64,000 bases of DNA from Spirochaetaceae bacterium. Its GTDB lineage: Bacteria > Spirochaetota > Spirochaetia > DSM-27196 > SKKC01. The notes below the pieces were generated by a model. It was not told where the DNA came from. It was given only the letters and a program-made list of their open reading frames with translations, and did not search any database. The stretch is from NCBI GenBank assembly GCA_007694005.1, contig RECN01000071.1, positions 1-64,000 on the forward strand, written 5' to 3'. A program made the position numbers and the translations under genes. Shown piece after piece: positions 56,486-63,929 of this stretch (the stretch's first letter is position 1; each line of letters begins with the position of its first letter).

Positions 56486-57235
56486 TCATTTCCTTCCCAG
56501 AAGCGACTCAGCCCGCTCTTTTACCGCCTCGTAGACGCCGCCACCCGACGCCGCGGCTATCGTCCGTACGAAGGCGCTCCCGACAACCGCTGCCTCACAG
56601 TGCGGTGCGAGGGCCTGCACCTGTTCTGCGTCCTGTATGCCGAAACCCGCGAAGATCTTCGTGCCCGAAGCTCCAAGCTTCTCGAGGAAGCCCATGTTCA
56701 ACGCTCCGAGCTCGGTGCGACTCCCGGTCGTCCCGGTCCGAAGCGCCACGTAGGTGTACTCAGGCCGTGTCGACAGCGCGAGGTCCACGCGCGTATCGGT
56801 CGAGGTCGCCACGAGCACCGGCACACAGGCTATCCCTGCGTCGCGGCAGGCCGTGTACAGGCCTTCGTCGTAATCCGGCGGCAGGTCGGGAACAATGAGC
56901 CCTGCCACTCCGTGTTCCTGCGCACGCGCGACGAAGGCCTGTACCCCCGGTCGGTATATCAGGCTCGCGTAGCTCATGAGAAAGATCGGAATGTCGGTGA
57001 AGCTTCTGATCTCGTCGAGGAAGGCAAAGCCGTCGGCCACGGTAAAACCGGCTTCAAGCGCGTCGCTGCACGCAGCCTGTATCGCCGGCCCGTCGGCGGT
57101 CGGATCGGAGAAGGGAAACTGCACCTCGAGGTAGGAAACGCCAGCGTCGACGAGTCCCCGGACCGCGTCCATGCTCTGCGCACGGTCGGGATACCAGGGA
57201 ATGACGTGTGCCATGATCCGTGTCGTGTCACTCAT
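56486..57235 (-). CDS. trpA: tryptophan synthase alpha subunit
   Basis: YLEVQFPFSDPTADGPAIQAACSDALEAGFT; GVAGLIVPDLPPDY. Confidence 0.93.
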   Translation of the reverse strand: MSDTTRIMAHVIPWYPDRAQSMDAVRGLVDAGVSYLEVQFPFSDPTADGPAIQAACSDALEAGFTVADGFAFLDEIRSFTDIPIFLMSYASLIYRPGVQAFVARAQEHGVAGLIVPDLPPDYDEGLYTACRDAGIACVPVLVATSTDTRVDLALSTRPEYTYVALRTGTTGSRTELGALNMGFLEKLGASGTKIFAGFGIQDAEQVQALAPHCEAAVVGSAFVRTIAAASGGGVYEAVKERAESLLGRK

Positions 57236-58455
57236 AGACTCTCAACCTCCCGGGTCAGAAACTCTTTCCAGCGCTCTGCGTCCAGTTCACGCGCGGTAAT
57301 AAAGAGGTCCTTGTCTCCCCGTCCACTCATGTTGATGACGACCGCGTCGTCGGGCGTAAGCTCCTTCGCGCGCTTTATGGCCACCATGCCCGCGTGTGCG
57401 CTTTCCAGCGCGAATATCACGCCTTCCTTCCGCGCGAAGTACTGAAGCCCCTCGAGCGCCTCGGCGTCGGTCGCCCGCTCAAAACGCACGCGACCGGTCT
57501 GCCCGAGATGCGCGAGCTGCGGCCCGACCCCGGGATAGTCGAGGCCTGCGCTCACCGAATGCGTCGGCATGACCTGCCCGTCGTTGTCAAGGAGAAAGAG
57601 ACTGCGGTAGCCCTGAACGATGCCCGGTGTGCCGAGGCCGTTCATGCGCGCGGCGTGATCGCCCTGTGCAGGCCCCCGTCCGCCTGCTTCCACGCCGATG
57701 AGTTCGGGTTCGCTCTGATCGATGTAAGGAGAGAAGAAGCCCATGGCGTTTGATCCGCCTCCGACACAGGTCACGAGCGTCGTCGGCCGCACACCGAGGT
57801 CTGAAAGCTGCGACACGACTTCTGTTCCTATTACGCTCTGAAACTCCCTGACCATGTCGGGAAATGGACTCGGGCCGAGGGCGCTTCCAAGCAGGTAGTG
57901 TGTGTCGGCGAAGTTGGCCGACCAGTCGCGCATGGCCTCGTTTACCGCGTCCTTGAGCGTGCGGGCGCCCGATGTTACCGGGACGACTTCTGCTCCGTAC
58001 ATCTCCATCCAGAACACGTTGGGTTTCTGACGCCGCATGTCGACTTCACCCATGTAGACCCGGCACTGCAGCCCGAGCTTCGCACAGACTGCCGCGGTTG
58101 CCACTCCGTGCTGCCCGGCGCCGGTCTCGGCGATGATGCGGGGTTTACCCATGCGTTTTGCGAGAAGCGCCTGCCCGAGCGCGTTGTTGATCTTGTGGGC
58201 GCCTGTTGCAGCGAGCCCTTCGAGCTTGATGTAGACCTGCGCGCCTCCCACGTCCCGGGTCACGTTCTCCGCGTGCAGAAGCGGCGTCGGTCGCCCGACG
58301 TAGCTCGCGAGCAGACGATGAAACTCGCTCATGAAGGCCTCGTCCGACAGCGCCTCGACGAAGGCACCCTCGAGCTCGTCGAGCGGCGAACGAAGCACCT
58401 CTGCTACGTAGCGGCCCCCGAACTCGCCGAAAAAGTCGTTGTACAACTGCTTCAT
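57232..58455 (-). CDS. trpB: tryptophan synthase beta subunit
   Basis: FGGRYVAEVL; YIKLEGLAATGAHKINNALGQALLAKRMGKPRIIAETGAGQHGVATA. Confidence 0.95.
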   Translation of the reverse strand: MKQLYNDFFGEFGGRYVAEVLRSPLDELEGAFVEALSDEAFMSEFHRLLASYVGRPTPLLHAENVTRDVGGAQVYIKLEGLAATGAHKINNALGQALLAKRMGKPRIIAETGAGQHGVATAAVCAKLGLQCRVYMGEVDMRRQKPNVFWMEMYGAEVVPVTSGARTLKDAVNEAMRDWSANFADTHYLLGSALGPSPFPDMVREFQSVIGTEVVSQLSDLGVRPTTLVTCVGGGSNAMGFFSPYIDQSEPELIGVEAGGRGPAQGDHAARMNGLGTPGIVQGYRSLFLLDNDGQVMPTHSVSAGLDYPGVGPQLAHLGQTGRVRFERATDAEALEGLQYFARKEGVIFALESAHAGMVAIKRAKELTPDDAVVINMSGRGDKDLFITARELDAERWKEFLTREVESL

Positions 58456-59924
58456 ACCGATGCCTCCTGAGCGATTGCCGCTTCGATCTCCGTGAACAGC
58501 GTTCGTATTTTCTGTGCGTCCTTGTATCCCGTTTCGTCCTCGAGCCCGCTTGAAACATCGACAAGCTCCGGGCCGAAGCGCCGCACAAGCTCGCGTACGT
58601 TGTCGGGCCTGATGCCCCCGGCGACCCAGAGCGGCCCCTGCGCGCAGACCGCTTCGAGGATTTCCGGGTCGAGTCTCCGACCCGTCCCTCCCCGCGCGTC
58701 CCGACTGTAGGCGTCAACGAGACAGCGCGGACAGTAGAACTCGCCAAGCCCCTGCGCGTCGTCGGGCGTGCGAAGCTGCATTGCCTTGTAGTAAGGGAAG
58801 GCAAGAGGTGCGCACTCATGCGGTTCTTCATCACCGTGCAGCTGCACCGCGTCCAGATAACCGTCTGCGAGTAGCTCCTGCACCTCAAGCGGAAGCACCG
58901 CCTCGGCGTCCTTCCCGTCACGCGCGACGACAACCGCAACCTTCAGCGCGTCGAGCCCCGCGCACTCTCTGACGCAGGCCGCGCTGCTGCGACGCGGGCT
59001 TTCGGCGAAGACAAAGCCCAGAAGGTCGGCACCGGCTTCCACCGCCACCGCAGCGTCTGAGGCGCGCATTATGCCGCAGACCTTGACCCAGGGGCGCCGG
59101 TGCCGTTTCGCGGTGAGGCGGTACCAGAACCCGGTGGGGACGCCGGCCGCCGGAGGCGCGCCGAGCGCGAGGCCGCGTTTGATCGCGGGGATGCGCGTAT
59201 GGTCGCGCACCACCGACTCACCGACGAGCACACCGCTGAATCCCGACTGTGAGGCGAGTGCGGCCTGCTCCTCTTCGAAGATCCCCGACTCGTAGACGAC
59301 GCTGCAGGGCCAGTCTATCGCGTGGCGGACCCGCACGGGTCCGAGTGGATCTATGCGGAAGGTCTTGAGGTCGCGGGCGTTTACCCCGACGAGCCCGGGC
59401 TTAAGCGGTGCAACGCGCCGGGCCTCGCGTTCATCGTGCACCTCTAGCAGAGCGTCCATGCCGAGTTCGCTCGCCCGCCGGTACATGGCCGACAGCTCGT
59501 CGTCAGACAGGAGCGAGGCTATGAGCAGGATGCAGTCGGCACCGGCGCGGTAGGAGTACTCGACGTCGGTCAAGTCGAGCAGGAAGTCCTTGCGGAGCAC
59601 TGGTAGATCGGGGAAGGTCTTCTTGACGACCATGAGGTCGGTCAGGTTGCCGCCAAAGTGATCCTCTTCGGTGAGAATCGAGATCGCATCCGCGCCGAGC
59701 TCGCGGTAGGTCCCTGCGAGCCGTACCGGCTGTATGCTCCCGTCTATGGTTCCCCGCGAGGGGCTTTTGCGCTTGATTTCGCAGATCACAAAGTTCGATC
59801 GTGGGAATGGCACTACGGGGTGCATGCGCTCGGCCGGAACGAGGGACGCGAGGCTGTAGCCTTCGGCTGCAACGCGCTCCCGGCGTTTTGTAGCGATGCG
59901 GGTCAGAATATCTACGTCGCTCAT
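58452..59924 (-). CDS. trpCF: fused indole-3-glycerol-phosphate synthase / phosphoribosylanthranilate isomerase
   Basis: IGPS half: CEIKRKSPSRGTI, AISILTEEDHFGGN, LRKDFLLD. PRAI half: VKVCGIMRASDAAVAVEAGADLLGFVFAESPRR, WVAGGIRPDNVRELV. Confidence 0.92.
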   Translation of the reverse strand: MSDVDILTRIATKRRERVAAEGYSLASLVPAERMHPVVPFPRSNFVICEIKRKSPSRGTIDGSIQPVRLAGTYRELGADAISILTEEDHFGGNLTDLMVVKKTFPDLPVLRKDFLLDLTDVEYSYRAGADCILLIASLLSDDELSAMYRRASELGMDALLEVHDEREARRVAPLKPGLVGVNARDLKTFRIDPLGPVRVRHAIDWPCSVVYESGIFEEEQAALASQSGFSGVLVGESVVRDHTRIPAIKRGLALGAPPAAGVPTGFWYRLTAKRHRRPWVKVCGIMRASDAAVAVEAGADLLGFVFAESPRRSSAACVRECAGLDALKVAVVVARDGKDAEAVLPLEVQELLADGYLDAVQLHGDEEPHECAPLAFPYYKAMQLRTPDDAQGLGEFYCPRCLVDAYSRDARGGTGRRLDPEILEAVCAQGPLWVAGGIRPDNVRELVRRFGPELVDVSSGLEDETGYKDAQKIRTLFTEIEAAIAQEASV

Positions 59925-61537
59925 GCCGCCCCCTCGTCGGGTGTCGTTCCGTGTGACCGCGACAGTATCGTGTTGATGCGATCCGCCGCAGACCCGTTGG
60001 CAAGCGCCGTTTTGACCCGCGCGACCCCGTCGGCGAGGTCGGCGGCTATTCCGGCAACCCAGAGCGCCGCACCGGCGTTCAGAAGCACCGCGTCGCGTAC
60101 CGCCGCCGGACCGGAGCCTGCAAGAAGCTCGCGCGCCATAGCGGCGTTTTCTTCGGCCGTGCCGCCGGCGAGGTCGGCGGTATCGTGGCCGGTTATCCCG
60201 TAGTCGGCCGGGTCGATTTCGAACTCGCGGATGCTGCCGTCAGGCTCGAGCAGGGCCGCAGACGTGATCGCTGCCGGGCTTATCTCGTCAAGGCCGTCGT
60301 GACCGTGGACCACAAGCGCCCGCTTGAGCCCGAGCTCGCGGCCCGCCTCCGCGACGACGCGGCAGAAGCGCGGGTCGAAGACCCCGATCAGCTGGTAGGC
60401 GGCCCCCGCGGGGTTAGAAAGCGGCCCGATGAGATTGAACACGGTCTTGATCTTGAGCTCGCGCCGCGGAACGGCGGCGTGCTTCATGGCGCTGTGATAC
60501 AGGGGCGCGAAGAGAAAGGCGAAGCCCTCAGCCTCGAGAAAGCGCTCGGCTTCCGCCGGTGTCAGGTCAAGGTTCAGACCCAGGGAACGATAGAAGTCCG
60601 CGCTCCCGCTGATGCTCGAGACCGCGCGGTTCCCGTGTTTGGCGACTTTCGCTCCGCAGGCTGCCGCGACGAGCGCGCAGAAACTGGAAATGTTGAAGGT
60701 ACCAAGACCGTCGCCCCCGGTGCCGCAGGTATCAAGCGTCTCTCCGCTCACCGTCACCGGTACGCGTCTGCGCTGCAGCACCGAGGCGCATCCAGCCACC
60801 TCCGACGCGGCTATGCCCTTCGCGTTCAGGCCGACGAGGACCCCGGCGATCTGGGCCGGGGTCAGACTCCCGTCGGTGACCTCTTCCATGAAGCGCTGCG
60901 CTTCGGCAAAGCTCAGGTCCTGCCCGGCTATAATATGATTCAGCGTGCCGGTATAATCGAAGGGATCGCGTCGGTAGCTCAGGAAGGCTCTGAGGACTTC
61001 CTTTCCGGCGGCACTGCCTATGGATTCGGGATGAAACTGCACGCCTTCCACGAGGTACTCCCGGTGGCGCACCCCCATGATCTCATCATCCTGACTTCTG
61101 GCGGTCACCTCGAGCTCGGCCGGGAGACTCTCCGGGTCAATGACGAGGGAGTGGTATCGCATGAAGGTCTCGGCCTTCCCTATGGTCCGGAAGACACCCT
61201 GCCCGTCAAGCCGCATGGGCTCTGCCTTGCCGTGCACGATGCGCTGTGCACCGACGATGCGCCCGCCGAAGGCCTCACCGATCGCCTGGTGCCCGAGGCA
61301 CACCCCGAGTATGGGGATCTCACCGGCAAAGGCCTTGATCAGGTCTATGCTGATGCCAGCCTCAGCCGGACGTCCGGGCCCCGGAGAGATGATGATGCGT
61401 GATGGAGACAGCACACGCACCTCATCCACGGTGATCCGGTCGTTTCTCACCACCTTGACCGCTTCATCGGTGAGTTCGCTGAGATACTGATACAGGTTGT
61501 GGGTAAACGAGTCGTAGTTATCAAGCAGCAGAATCAT
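59921..61537 (-). CDS. trpGD: fused anthranilate synthase component II / anthranilate phosphoribosyltransferase
   Basis: TrpG half: LLDNYDSFTHNLYQYL, ISPGPGRPAEAGIS, GVCLGHQAIGEAFGG. TrpD half: DTCGTGGDGLGTFNISSFCALVAAACGAKVAKHGNRAVSSISGSAD. Confidence 0.94.
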   Translation of the reverse strand: MILLLDNYDSFTHNLYQYLSELTDEAVKVVRNDRITVDEVRVLSPSRIIISPGPGRPAEAGISIDLIKAFAGEIPILGVCLGHQAIGEAFGGRIVGAQRIVHGKAEPMRLDGQGVFRTIGKAETFMRYHSLVIDPESLPAELEVTARSQDDEIMGVRHREYLVEGVQFHPESIGSAAGKEVLRAFLSYRRDPFDYTGTLNHIIAGQDLSFAEAQRFMEEVTDGSLTPAQIAGVLVGLNAKGIAASEVAGCASVLQRRRVPVTVSGETLDTCGTGGDGLGTFNISSFCALVAAACGAKVAKHGNRAVSSISGSADFYRSLGLNLDLTPAEAERFLEAEGFAFLFAPLYHSAMKHAAVPRRELKIKTVFNLIGPLSNPAGAAYQLIGVFDPRFCRVVAEAGRELGLKRALVVHGHDGLDEISPAAITSAALLEPDGSIREFEIDPADYGITGHDTADLAGGTAEENAAMARELLAGSGPAAVRDAVLLNAGAALWVAGIAADLADGVARVKTALANGSAADRINTILSRSHGTTPDEGAA

Positions 61538-61540
61538 TGC

Positions 61541-62938
61541 CTATACCTCCAGACCGATAGCCCGTGCGAGGGCCGAAAGCTTTTCCTGTGTTTCCTCATA
61601 CTCGCGCTCGGGGGTCGAGTCATAAACTACTCCCGCACCCGCCTGCAGGACCATCGTTTTTCCCGTTTTCATGGCACATCGGATGGCAATACAGGTATCG
61701 AGGTTGCCCCCGGGCTCGACATAGCCGACGACCCCCGCGTAGAAACCCCGACGATGCGGTTCTATCGCATCAAGCGTCTCTATCGCCCGGATCTTCGGCG
61801 CGCCGGAGACCGTACCCGCCGGGAAGGTCGCACGCAGCGCGTGTATGCCGTCGGCCCCCGGCTTCAGCGTTCCACGGGCCTCGCTGACAATGTGCATGAC
61901 CCGGCTGTAGCGCTCTATGCTTAGGAGCTCGGTCAACCGGACCTCGGAACACACCCGCCCTATGTCGTTCCGAGCAAGGTCAACGAGCATGCGGTGCTCG
62001 GCGAGTTCTTTTTCATCCGACAGGAGCTCTTTTTCAAGCGCCTTATCCTCGGCATCCGTCGCCCCGCGCCTGCGCGTCCCGGCAATAGGTCTGATCTGAA
62101 CCTCGCCACCTCTGACCTTCACGTGCACTTCCGGGGAAGCGCCGAAGAGCTGTGTCTCCCCGTAGTCGAGAAAGAACAGGTACGGTGCGGGATTCGCCGT
62201 CCTGAGCCTTCGATACGCCTCAAGGGCCGGAAGCTCGGTCACCGCTTCTACCCTGCGACTCAAGACCGCCTGCAGCAGATTCCCCGCCACAATCTCGTCC
62301 TTCAGCGTTGCCACCCCGTCGATAAAGCGCGCCTTCTCTTTGGGGTCGGCGCCGACTTTCGCCTCGTAGTGCCCGTCGTCGAGGGTCAGGTGCCCGTAAT
62401 CAGCGTCGAGGATGCGCTCGGCGACCCGGTCGACAGCCTCGCGCAGATCAACCTCGTGCTCCGTGTAGTTGACCCCGATCAGGTGAAGCTCATCGGTATA
62501 ATGATCGAAGATGATGAACACGTGACCGAACATGAAGGAGGCAAGCGGATTACCCAGAGGGTCGGGCCGGTCGGCGAGGCGGATCGTGTCGCACTTCGCT
62601 GAGAACTCGTAGGAGAGATAACCGATCCCGCCAGCCGGAAAGGGAACCCCACCCTGCATGGGCTCGTGCTGGTCTGCGATGTAGCGCAGGACGTCGAGGA
62701 TATCGCGCGCCCGGCTTTCCACCCGCCACCGGCGCCGGTCATCCTGCAGGAAGATACCCCGGTCGGTCTCGAAGACGCGGAATGCCTCATCGACCATGAT
62801 CAGAGAGTAGCGCTCCCGACCGTTGTGAAAGGTCGCCGACTCGAGCAAGACCCGTGCGTCGAGCTTTCGGGCGAGGGCAAAAGGGGTAAAACGTTCGCCC
62901 GAGAGCGTTCGTGTAATCGTGTCACTGCGGGTGTCCAT
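61541..62938 (-). CDS. trpE: anthranilate synthase component I
   Basis: IRPIAGTRRRGATDAEDKALEKELLSDEKELAEHRMLVDLARNDIGRVC; FPAGTVSGAPKIRAIETLD. Confidence 0.95.
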   Translation of the reverse strand: MDTRSDTITRTLSGERFTPFALARKLDARVLLESATFHNGRERYSLIMVDEAFRVFETDRGIFLQDDRRRWRVESRARDILDVLRYIADQHEPMQGGVPFPAGGIGYLSYEFSAKCDTIRLADRPDPLGNPLASFMFGHVFIIFDHYTDELHLIGVNYTEHEVDLREAVDRVAERILDADYGHLTLDDGHYEAKVGADPKEKARFIDGVATLKDEIVAGNLLQAVLSRRVEAVTELPALEAYRRLRTANPAPYLFFLDYGETQLFGASPEVHVKVRGGEVQIRPIAGTRRRGATDAEDKALEKELLSDEKELAEHRMLVDLARNDIGRVCSEVRLTELLSIERYSRVMHIVSEARGTLKPGADGIHALRATFPAGTVSGAPKIRAIETLDAIEPHRRGFYAGVVGYVEPGGNLDTCIAIRCAMKTGKTMVLQAGAGVVYDSTPEREYEETQEKLSALARAIGLEV

Positions 62939-62996: not shown

Positions 62997-63045
62997 AAAA
63001 AAAGGCCGCAACCGGTACGCTGAATCGCGTCCACCGGGCGGCCTT
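62997..63045 (-). terminator. trp attenuator terminator
   Basis: Minus strand AAGGCCGC-c-CGGT..ACCGG-..GCGGCCTTTTTTT: long GC-rich stem (with internal GCGT/ACGC pairing) then seven T, in the 5' leader of trpE. Confidence 0.85.
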
Positions 63046-63083
63046 CTTCGTCACACAGTTTACATGCGTGAAGAGCCCCGGTA

Positions 63084-63137
63084 TTACCGGAGCCACCAAC
63101 CAGAATTGTGTGTAATGTCTCGCAATTGAGAAATCAT
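63084..63137 (-). CDS. trpL: tryptophan operon leader peptide MISQLRDITHNSGWWLR
   Basis: ATG ATT TCT CAA TTG CGA GAC ATT ACA CAC AAT TCT GGT TGG TGG CTC CGG TAA: tandem Trp codons immediately before the attenuator stem-loops. Confidence 0.88.
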   Translation of the reverse strand: MISQLRDITHNSGWWLR

Positions 63138-63188: not shown

Positions 63189-63458
63189 TTAATCGTAATG
63201 GCTCCACATCCGAATTACTTTAACGACTTTCAAGATATCGTCGACTTGATAGACGATACGGTGCTGTATGTTGATGCGTCGGGAATACGACCCACTGAGA
63301 TCCCCGAGTAGCTTCTCAAAAGGAGGATACTCAGAAAATGGGTTCTCGCGTAACAGCTCAAGAATCCGCTCTGCATTGGGCCGAAGACTGGAGGCTGACA
63401 GTTTTTTCGCGTCTTTTAATGCTTGTTTTGTGAATACGAGACGGTACACCGAATGCAT
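63189..63458 (-). CDS. yoeB: Txe/YoeB-family toxin
   Basis: YRLVFTKQALKDAKKLSASSLRPNAERILELLRENPFSEYPPFEKLLGDLSGSYSRRINIQHRIVYQVDD...VKVIRMWSHYD. Confidence 0.87.
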   Translation of the reverse strand: MHSVYRLVFTKQALKDAKKLSASSLRPNAERILELLRENPFSEYPPFEKLLGDLSGSYSRRINIQHRIVYQVDDILKVVKVIRMWSHYD

Positions 63459-63710
63459 CTACCACTCGATGGCATCCGAGCATTCGTCCAGGGGAGTTTG
63501 CATTCCTTCAAGAATAGATTCACGCATACCTGGTATAGCCGTCAGTGCGAGTGTTGCTTCGATATTGTTCCAGTCCTCGTCGGAAACCAGAACAGCTGCA
63601 CCGTTTTTTCCAGTGATCTGTATCGGTCGATGCGACTCTCTGACCTGTTGGACGATCTTGAAGAGGTCCTTTCGGGCGTTCGTTATGTTGATTGAATCCA
63701 TTGAAGACAT
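63459..63710 (-). CDS. yefM: YefM/Phd-family antitoxin
   Basis: MDSINITNARKDLFKIVQQVRESHRPIQITGKNGAAVLVSDEDWNNIEATL; directly upstream of the toxin. Confidence 0.87.
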   Translation of the reverse strand: MSSMDSINITNARKDLFKIVQQVRESHRPIQITGKNGAAVLVSDEDWNNIEATLALTAIPGMRESILEGMQTPLDECSDAIEW

Positions 63711-63712
63711 CC

Positions 63713-63730
63713 TGTACGTAATGCTGTACA
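63713..63730. promoter_or_regulatory. putative YefM operator
   Basis: TGTACG and TGTACA motifs 12 bp apart just upstream of yefM. Confidence 0.5.
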
Positions 63731-63929
63731 TAGTCTACACCCTCCTTCTTGTGCATGTCAAAAGACACCTCGCAGCATCGTCTCTGCGCCCGGGCGCACG
63801 ACGTGCACCTGAGCTACCCGTGCCTATATATACGCAGAAGAAACGTCACTTGATTGGAGGATTTCTAATGATCTGTGGTCGGCGATCGACCTTTGTGAAA
63901 ACACTTACAGATGGTGTACACTGATCTCG

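Follow-up and report, generated by a model that had tools for sequence, protein, structure and literature searches.

A probable ribosome-mediated trp attenuator with a predicted near-leaderless leader in a Spirochaetaceae bacterium

The trp operon of the Spirochaetaceae bacterium analysed here is very probably controlled by a ribosome-mediated transcription attenuator of the ordinary type. The ribosome-stalling switch for tryptophan genes is textbook knowledge from E. coli. The window, which is the whole stretch of 64,000 nucleotides under analysis, carries on its minus strand the features of a classical trp attenuator, namely a leader open reading frame with Trp codons, a terminator before trpE and an antiterminator which, as computed, excludes the terminator. 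This reading draws on the sequence, its conservation, the geometry of the leader and the energetics of the alternative folds, from which we infer ribosome stalling, read-through, the response to tryptophan and the near-leaderless start. The preliminary description had taken the host for a spirochaete, and this is borne out by the TrpE of the window, which is 96% identical to that of SKXQ01000054.1, a Spirochaetaceae MAG.

The operon behind the attenuator is complete and has the order trpE-trpGD-trpCF-trpB-trpA, all on the minus strand. The trpE gene (61541-62938) is preceded by a Shine-Dalgarno sequence AAGGA at 62952-62948; its best model was TIGR00564 (E 7e-148), below the curated cut-off, while PF00425 and PF04715 scored above theirs. 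It is followed by a trpG-trpD fusion (59921-61537; NF011201, above cut-off), a trpC-trpF fusion (58452-59924; NF006945 as best model, below the curated cut-off), trpB (57232-58455; TIGR00263, above cut-off) and trpA (56486-57235; TIGR00262, above cut-off), the cut-offs for the TIGR and NF models being those of NCBIfam equivalogs. The trp promoter is immediately preceded by genes for a YefM/Phd antitoxin and a YoeB/Txe toxin (63189-63731, minus strand). In the sister genome L003 this position is occupied by other DNA, which seems to be the end of a different RelE-like gene.

The leader open reading frame MISQLRDITHNSGWWLR (63084-63137) has 17 codons and ends in GWWLR, with Trp codons 14 and 15 at 63098-63093; L003 and L083 encode an identical peptide. 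In the predicted fold, strand 1 (GCUCCGGU, 63086-63093) has the last base of the second Trp codon as its first base, and strand 2 (ACCGGGGC, 63075-63082) can pair either with it or with strand 3. The 1:2 hairpin begins in the second Trp codon and extends into the stop codon around a loop of 3 nt. Its pairing and the inclusion of the leader stop had been described before and hold, but the 9 bp then claimed reduce to 8 bp, as the innermost A-U pair cannot close. Strand 3 (63033-63047), placed by folding of the nascent RNA with the ribosome footprint masked, overlaps the 5' arm of the intrinsic terminator hairpin AAGGCCGC...GCGGCCUU (62997-63049, about -28 kcal/mol), which ends in a 7-T run at 63003-62997. 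The alternative 2:3 pairing ACCGGG/CCCGGU given in the preliminary description is present in the sequence and was recovered in the masked nascent-RNA fold; the rest of the anatomy at 63137-62997, including the tandem-Trp reading frame and the terminator with its seven T, was base-exact on re-reading. Between strand 2 and the terminator a small hairpin (63051-63071), missing from that description, is predicted and is retained within the antiterminator. The leader of 153 nt folds with a z-score of -4.6, and none of 200 shuffles was equally stable.

A sigma-70-type promoter was read from the sequence at 63177-63148 on the minus strand, with -35 box TTGACA (63177-63172), an 18-nt spacer and -10 box TAATTT (63153-63148). 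It lies 10 nt ahead of the leader AUG, which places the predicted start at about 63141-63140 and gives a predicted 5' UTR of 3-4 nt; no Shine-Dalgarno sequence was read ahead of the leader ORF of the window. The same -35/-10/ATG layout was found across the relatives, where the leader start codon lies 6-10 nt past the -10 box in 39 of 42 leaders. A spacing of 5-12 nt was selected in 93% of the real upstream regions vs 20% of the shuffled ones. Since a spacing of 6-10 nt puts the predicted transcription start 0-4 nt from the leader AUG, the mRNAs of these 39 leaders are predicted to be near-leaderless, a feature that had not been described for the window before. Two WW leaders of family f11 (L176, L182) differ from the other leaders in having a Shine-Dalgarno sequence and apparently a longer 5' UTR.

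The proposed mechanism is as follows. Transcription would start about 3-4 nt ahead of the leader AUG, and the leader would be translated on a near-leaderless mRNA. If charged tRNA-Trp is scarce, the ribosome would stall on UGG14 or UGG15 and cover the RNA to nt 52-55, that is over strand 1 (leader nt 45-52). Strand 2 (nt 56-63) could then pair with the emerging base of the terminator, and RNA polymerase would read through into trpE. Where the terminator folds, transcription would end after about 140 nt. The usual ribosome footprint extends about 15 nt beyond the first P-site base in the 3' direction. By this geometry a ribosome with UGG14 or UGG15 in the A site covers the leader to nt 52 or 55, masking strand 1 and leaving strand 2 bare, while a ribosome at the leader stop covers it to about nt 64 and masks strand 2.

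The preliminary description had proposed folding with and without masking of strand 1, and such folds reproduced the attenuation logic in the nascent RNA, not at equilibrium. Folding the whole leader at equilibrium under a strand-1 mask was rejected as a test of the switch, for the terminator wins regardless: once finished, it is more stable than the antiterminator even under this mask. Nascent-RNA folds under ribosome masks were therefore used, with the sequestration probability of the terminator 5' arm as the readout. The greater stability of the finished terminator also means that the decision is needed during transcription, before strand 4 is made; according to these models the switch of the window must act co-transcriptionally, as expected.

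Under the stalled mask the antiterminator ACCGGG.../...CCCGGU reached -19.4 kcal/mol vs about -10 for the stop position. The computed sequestration of the terminator 5' arm was 0.68 for the stalled ribosome vs 0.01 at the stop codon, in accordance with the earlier claim that a stall at the UGG pair frees strand 2 for strand 3. None of 300 shuffles of the region from the Trp codons to the terminator gave an equally large difference. The E. coli trpL control, whose sequence was confirmed against 5,399 genomes, behaved alike in the same kind of test (0.62/0.00/0.30 for stall, stop and no ribosome), and the near-identical relative L003 gave 0.51/0.06/0.24. When the mask was scanned along the window leader, sequestration was at its maximum at nt 48-54 and fell to 0.03 at nt 63; it was fairly high also elsewhere, e.g. 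at nt 27-33 and 72-78. Across the relatives, the stall-stop difference exceeded 0.3 in 20 of 41 leaders and had the wrong direction in 3. Many of the weakly separating relatives possess a further hairpin, 3:4, and a relay that the masking test does not follow.

Genomes of the family (7), the order (46) and the class (397) were searched for trpE, and about 130 of the upstream regions were inspected. Conservation of the Trp codons had been set as a test of the attenuator, and at order level a Trp-rich leader ORF (WW, WWW or WxW) was found in 25 of the 28 trpE upstream regions with enough DNA. Nearly all of these leaders have a recognisable terminator, L084 lacking a clear T-run. Two of the three exceptions (L095, L116) carry an GTTTCTATnnATAGAAAC palindrome, and the trpE match of the third (L183) is incomplete at the N terminus. 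Some ten other families of the class have Trp-rich leaders as well, with weaker calls for L124 and L126. A detector requiring a 'WW' ATG-ORF with a terminator behind it was run on the trpE upstream regions of the class; it gave hits in 39 of the 124 real regions, whereas none of 620 dinucleotide shuffles and none of the 124 reverse strands gave any. In the rest of their sequence most of the leader peptides are unrelated, so that what is conserved is the design. In families f2, f4, f6 and f7 the leader forms three hairpins, 1:2, 3:4 and a terminator 5:6; in the f2 clade strand 2 is complementary to strand 3, and strand 4 to strand 5, giving a relay of the kind seen in the his attenuator. Compensatory pairing, also expected in the preliminary description, is borne out by a single two-sided change in the f2 clade; such changes are otherwise very few, with hardly any variation within the genus of the window. 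As an argument, covariation in the f2 clade was dropped, its arms being almost invariant and shuffles nearly as good. The compensatory evidence being thin, support for the attenuator comes from the same design kept by unrelated sequences.

If the terminator served constitutively to end an upstream transcript or a small RNA, and the WW reading frame were due to chance, this would account for a strong terminator (-28 kcal/mol) downstream of an unrelated toxin-antitoxin pair. This reading is highly improbable, as the toxin gene and the leader are separated by a sigma-70-like promoter, the Trp codons are correctly spaced from strand 1, and the pairing of WW with a terminator, seen in 39 of 124 regions, was never seen in shuffles. 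Still closer to negligible is the chance that a tryptophan-sensing RNA or protein (T-box, TRAP or riboswitch) drives the terminator and the leader peptide is incidental. One sub-threshold T-box-like match was found in the genome (G000:C179:9247-9540, minus strand, 49 bits, E 1.4e-9), but on another contig than the trp operon. Rfam gave no above-gathering match in the window, a scan of the leader region at E <= 5 returned chance-level matches only, none of them relevant, and no TRAP gene was found in the window's genome.

Control mainly by a TrpR-family repressor at initiation, with the attenuator as a minor tuner as in E. coli, is plausible for some relatives, for 12 attenuator regions also have the palindrome, and the genomes of 11 of these possess a TrpR-family gene. 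For the window it is very unlikely: a TrpR-family gene (PF01371) was not found in its genome, which is 96% complete, or in the sampled rest of the family, and the 18-bp palindrome GTTTCTATnnATAGAAAC is absent from its promoter as read from the sequence and from the near-identical L083 promoter. The ribosome-mediated attenuator may be standing in for the usual tryptophan repressor in the window's genome and many of its relatives.

The class as a whole was compared in this respect. Of the 397 class genomes, 287 gave a PF01371 gene. This model matches a B. subtilis protein as well, so some of these may be TrpR-like proteins and not TrpR. The GTTTCTATnnATAGAAAC palindrome lies near the trpE promoter in many PF01371-bearing genomes; L005, L009, L095, L116, L144 and L201 are examples of trpE upstream regions that have it. 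Of the palindrome-bearing regions, 79 of 85 fall in genomes with a TrpR-family gene, vs 7 of 45 without it (Fisher p 2e-19, kinship ignored). The palindrome is hypothesized to be the likely TrpR operator. Attenuators occur mostly where TrpR and the palindrome are missing; attenuator and palindrome avoid each other (Fisher p 1e-10, kinship ignored), and the associations among TrpR family, attenuator and palindrome range from p 6e-8 to 2e-19, again with kinship ignored. A quickly built trpE tree requires 11 or more state changes for the attenuator, 14 or more for the TrpR family and 9 or more for the palindrome. Palindrome and TrpR were never opposite in direction among the independent pairs; with 5 to 8 supported pairs only, the sign test was not significant (median p 0.25 to 1), and the exchange of repressor and attenuator is therefore stated as a hypothesis. 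In several genomes with both states the palindrome lies inside the leader ORF, encoding ..VSINRN.. at the start of the leader peptide. It is about an even call that in Spirochaetia near-leaderless attenuation and TrpR-family repression at GTTTCTATnnATAGAAAC are interchangeable for trpE, the attenuator having been overlaid on a repressor-controlled promoter and the repressor then lost in some lineages including that of the window. In family f36 (L129, L136, L137, L141, L142) the trpE upstream regions were seen with none of attenuator, palindrome and TrpR-family gene.

Among the known attenuators, E. coli trpL (RF00513, Trp_leader) shares with the window the tandem UGG codons, the short leader ORF, the 1:2/2:3/3:4 architecture, the terminator before trpE and the masking behaviour. 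The window differs from it in the predicted near-leaderless start without a Shine-Dalgarno sequence, in the extra small hairpin and in that no TrpR partner was found. The RF00513 gathering score (41 bits) was reached in 0 of 46 order genomes, and the window gave no match. The near-leaderless start is not new in kind, as leaderless trp attenuators are documented in two other organisms. In Sinorhizobium meliloti the trpL/rnTrpL transcript starts at the leader AUG and trpE is attenuated without repression (PMC7298713), which resembles the prediction for the window; unlike the window, this Alphaproteobacterium has a single trpE(G) gene instead of a full operon, and its leader sequence is unrelated. 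In Streptomyces lividans, trpE is preceded by trpL1, which codes for a leaderless WWW leader peptide MFAHSTRNWWWTAHPAAH and is accompanied by hairpins and a U-rich stretch (PMC8079986), but this is an Actinobacterium and its trpE is monocistronic. The his attenuator of Salmonella and E. coli resembles the f2, f4, f6 and f7 relatives in its hairpins 1:2, 3:4 and 5:6, and the f2 relatives also in its alternatives 2:3 and 4:5. The extra hairpin between its pause hairpin and terminator has been argued to reduce basal read-through (PMC1183508). It differs from the window in its His codons; the extra hairpin of the window is a small one, and the terminator arm is the direct pairing partner of strand 2.

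The same genome was inspected at other amino-acid operons. Upstream of leuA (L225/L228, G000:C38, minus strand) a Leu/Ile-rich near-leaderless leader ORF (MTAVYQLGIALLSGLIILSLTGIAGWRAPHR*) and a terminator were found, and all 7 related leuA loci found (L229-L235) have Leu/Ile/Val-rich leaders with a terminator. The leuA leader is a likely candidate for a branched-chain attenuator, and by their sequences these leaders suggest that attenuation is used more generally in these spirochaetes. No attenuator was seen by eye at hisG and the preceding gene.

In the open-access literature we found no previous account of trp attenuation in spirochaetes, and a prior prediction elsewhere is possible; a survey of attenuation in Actinobacteria (PMC1262725) cites an earlier one in Proteobacteria. 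Judged against the open-access literature, the known distribution of trp attenuation is likely extended to spirochaetes. If this is true, the phylum offers related genomes with trpE under attenuation alone, under a putative repressor alone, or under both. It would then be testable whether operons with the attenuator alone depend on an extra hairpin of the his type against basal read-through, in line with the model for his versus trp in which such a hairpin keeps basal read-through low (PMC1183508). Near-leaderless attenuator leaders, known from Alphaproteobacteria and Actinobacteria, may also be commoner, as the present leaders hint.
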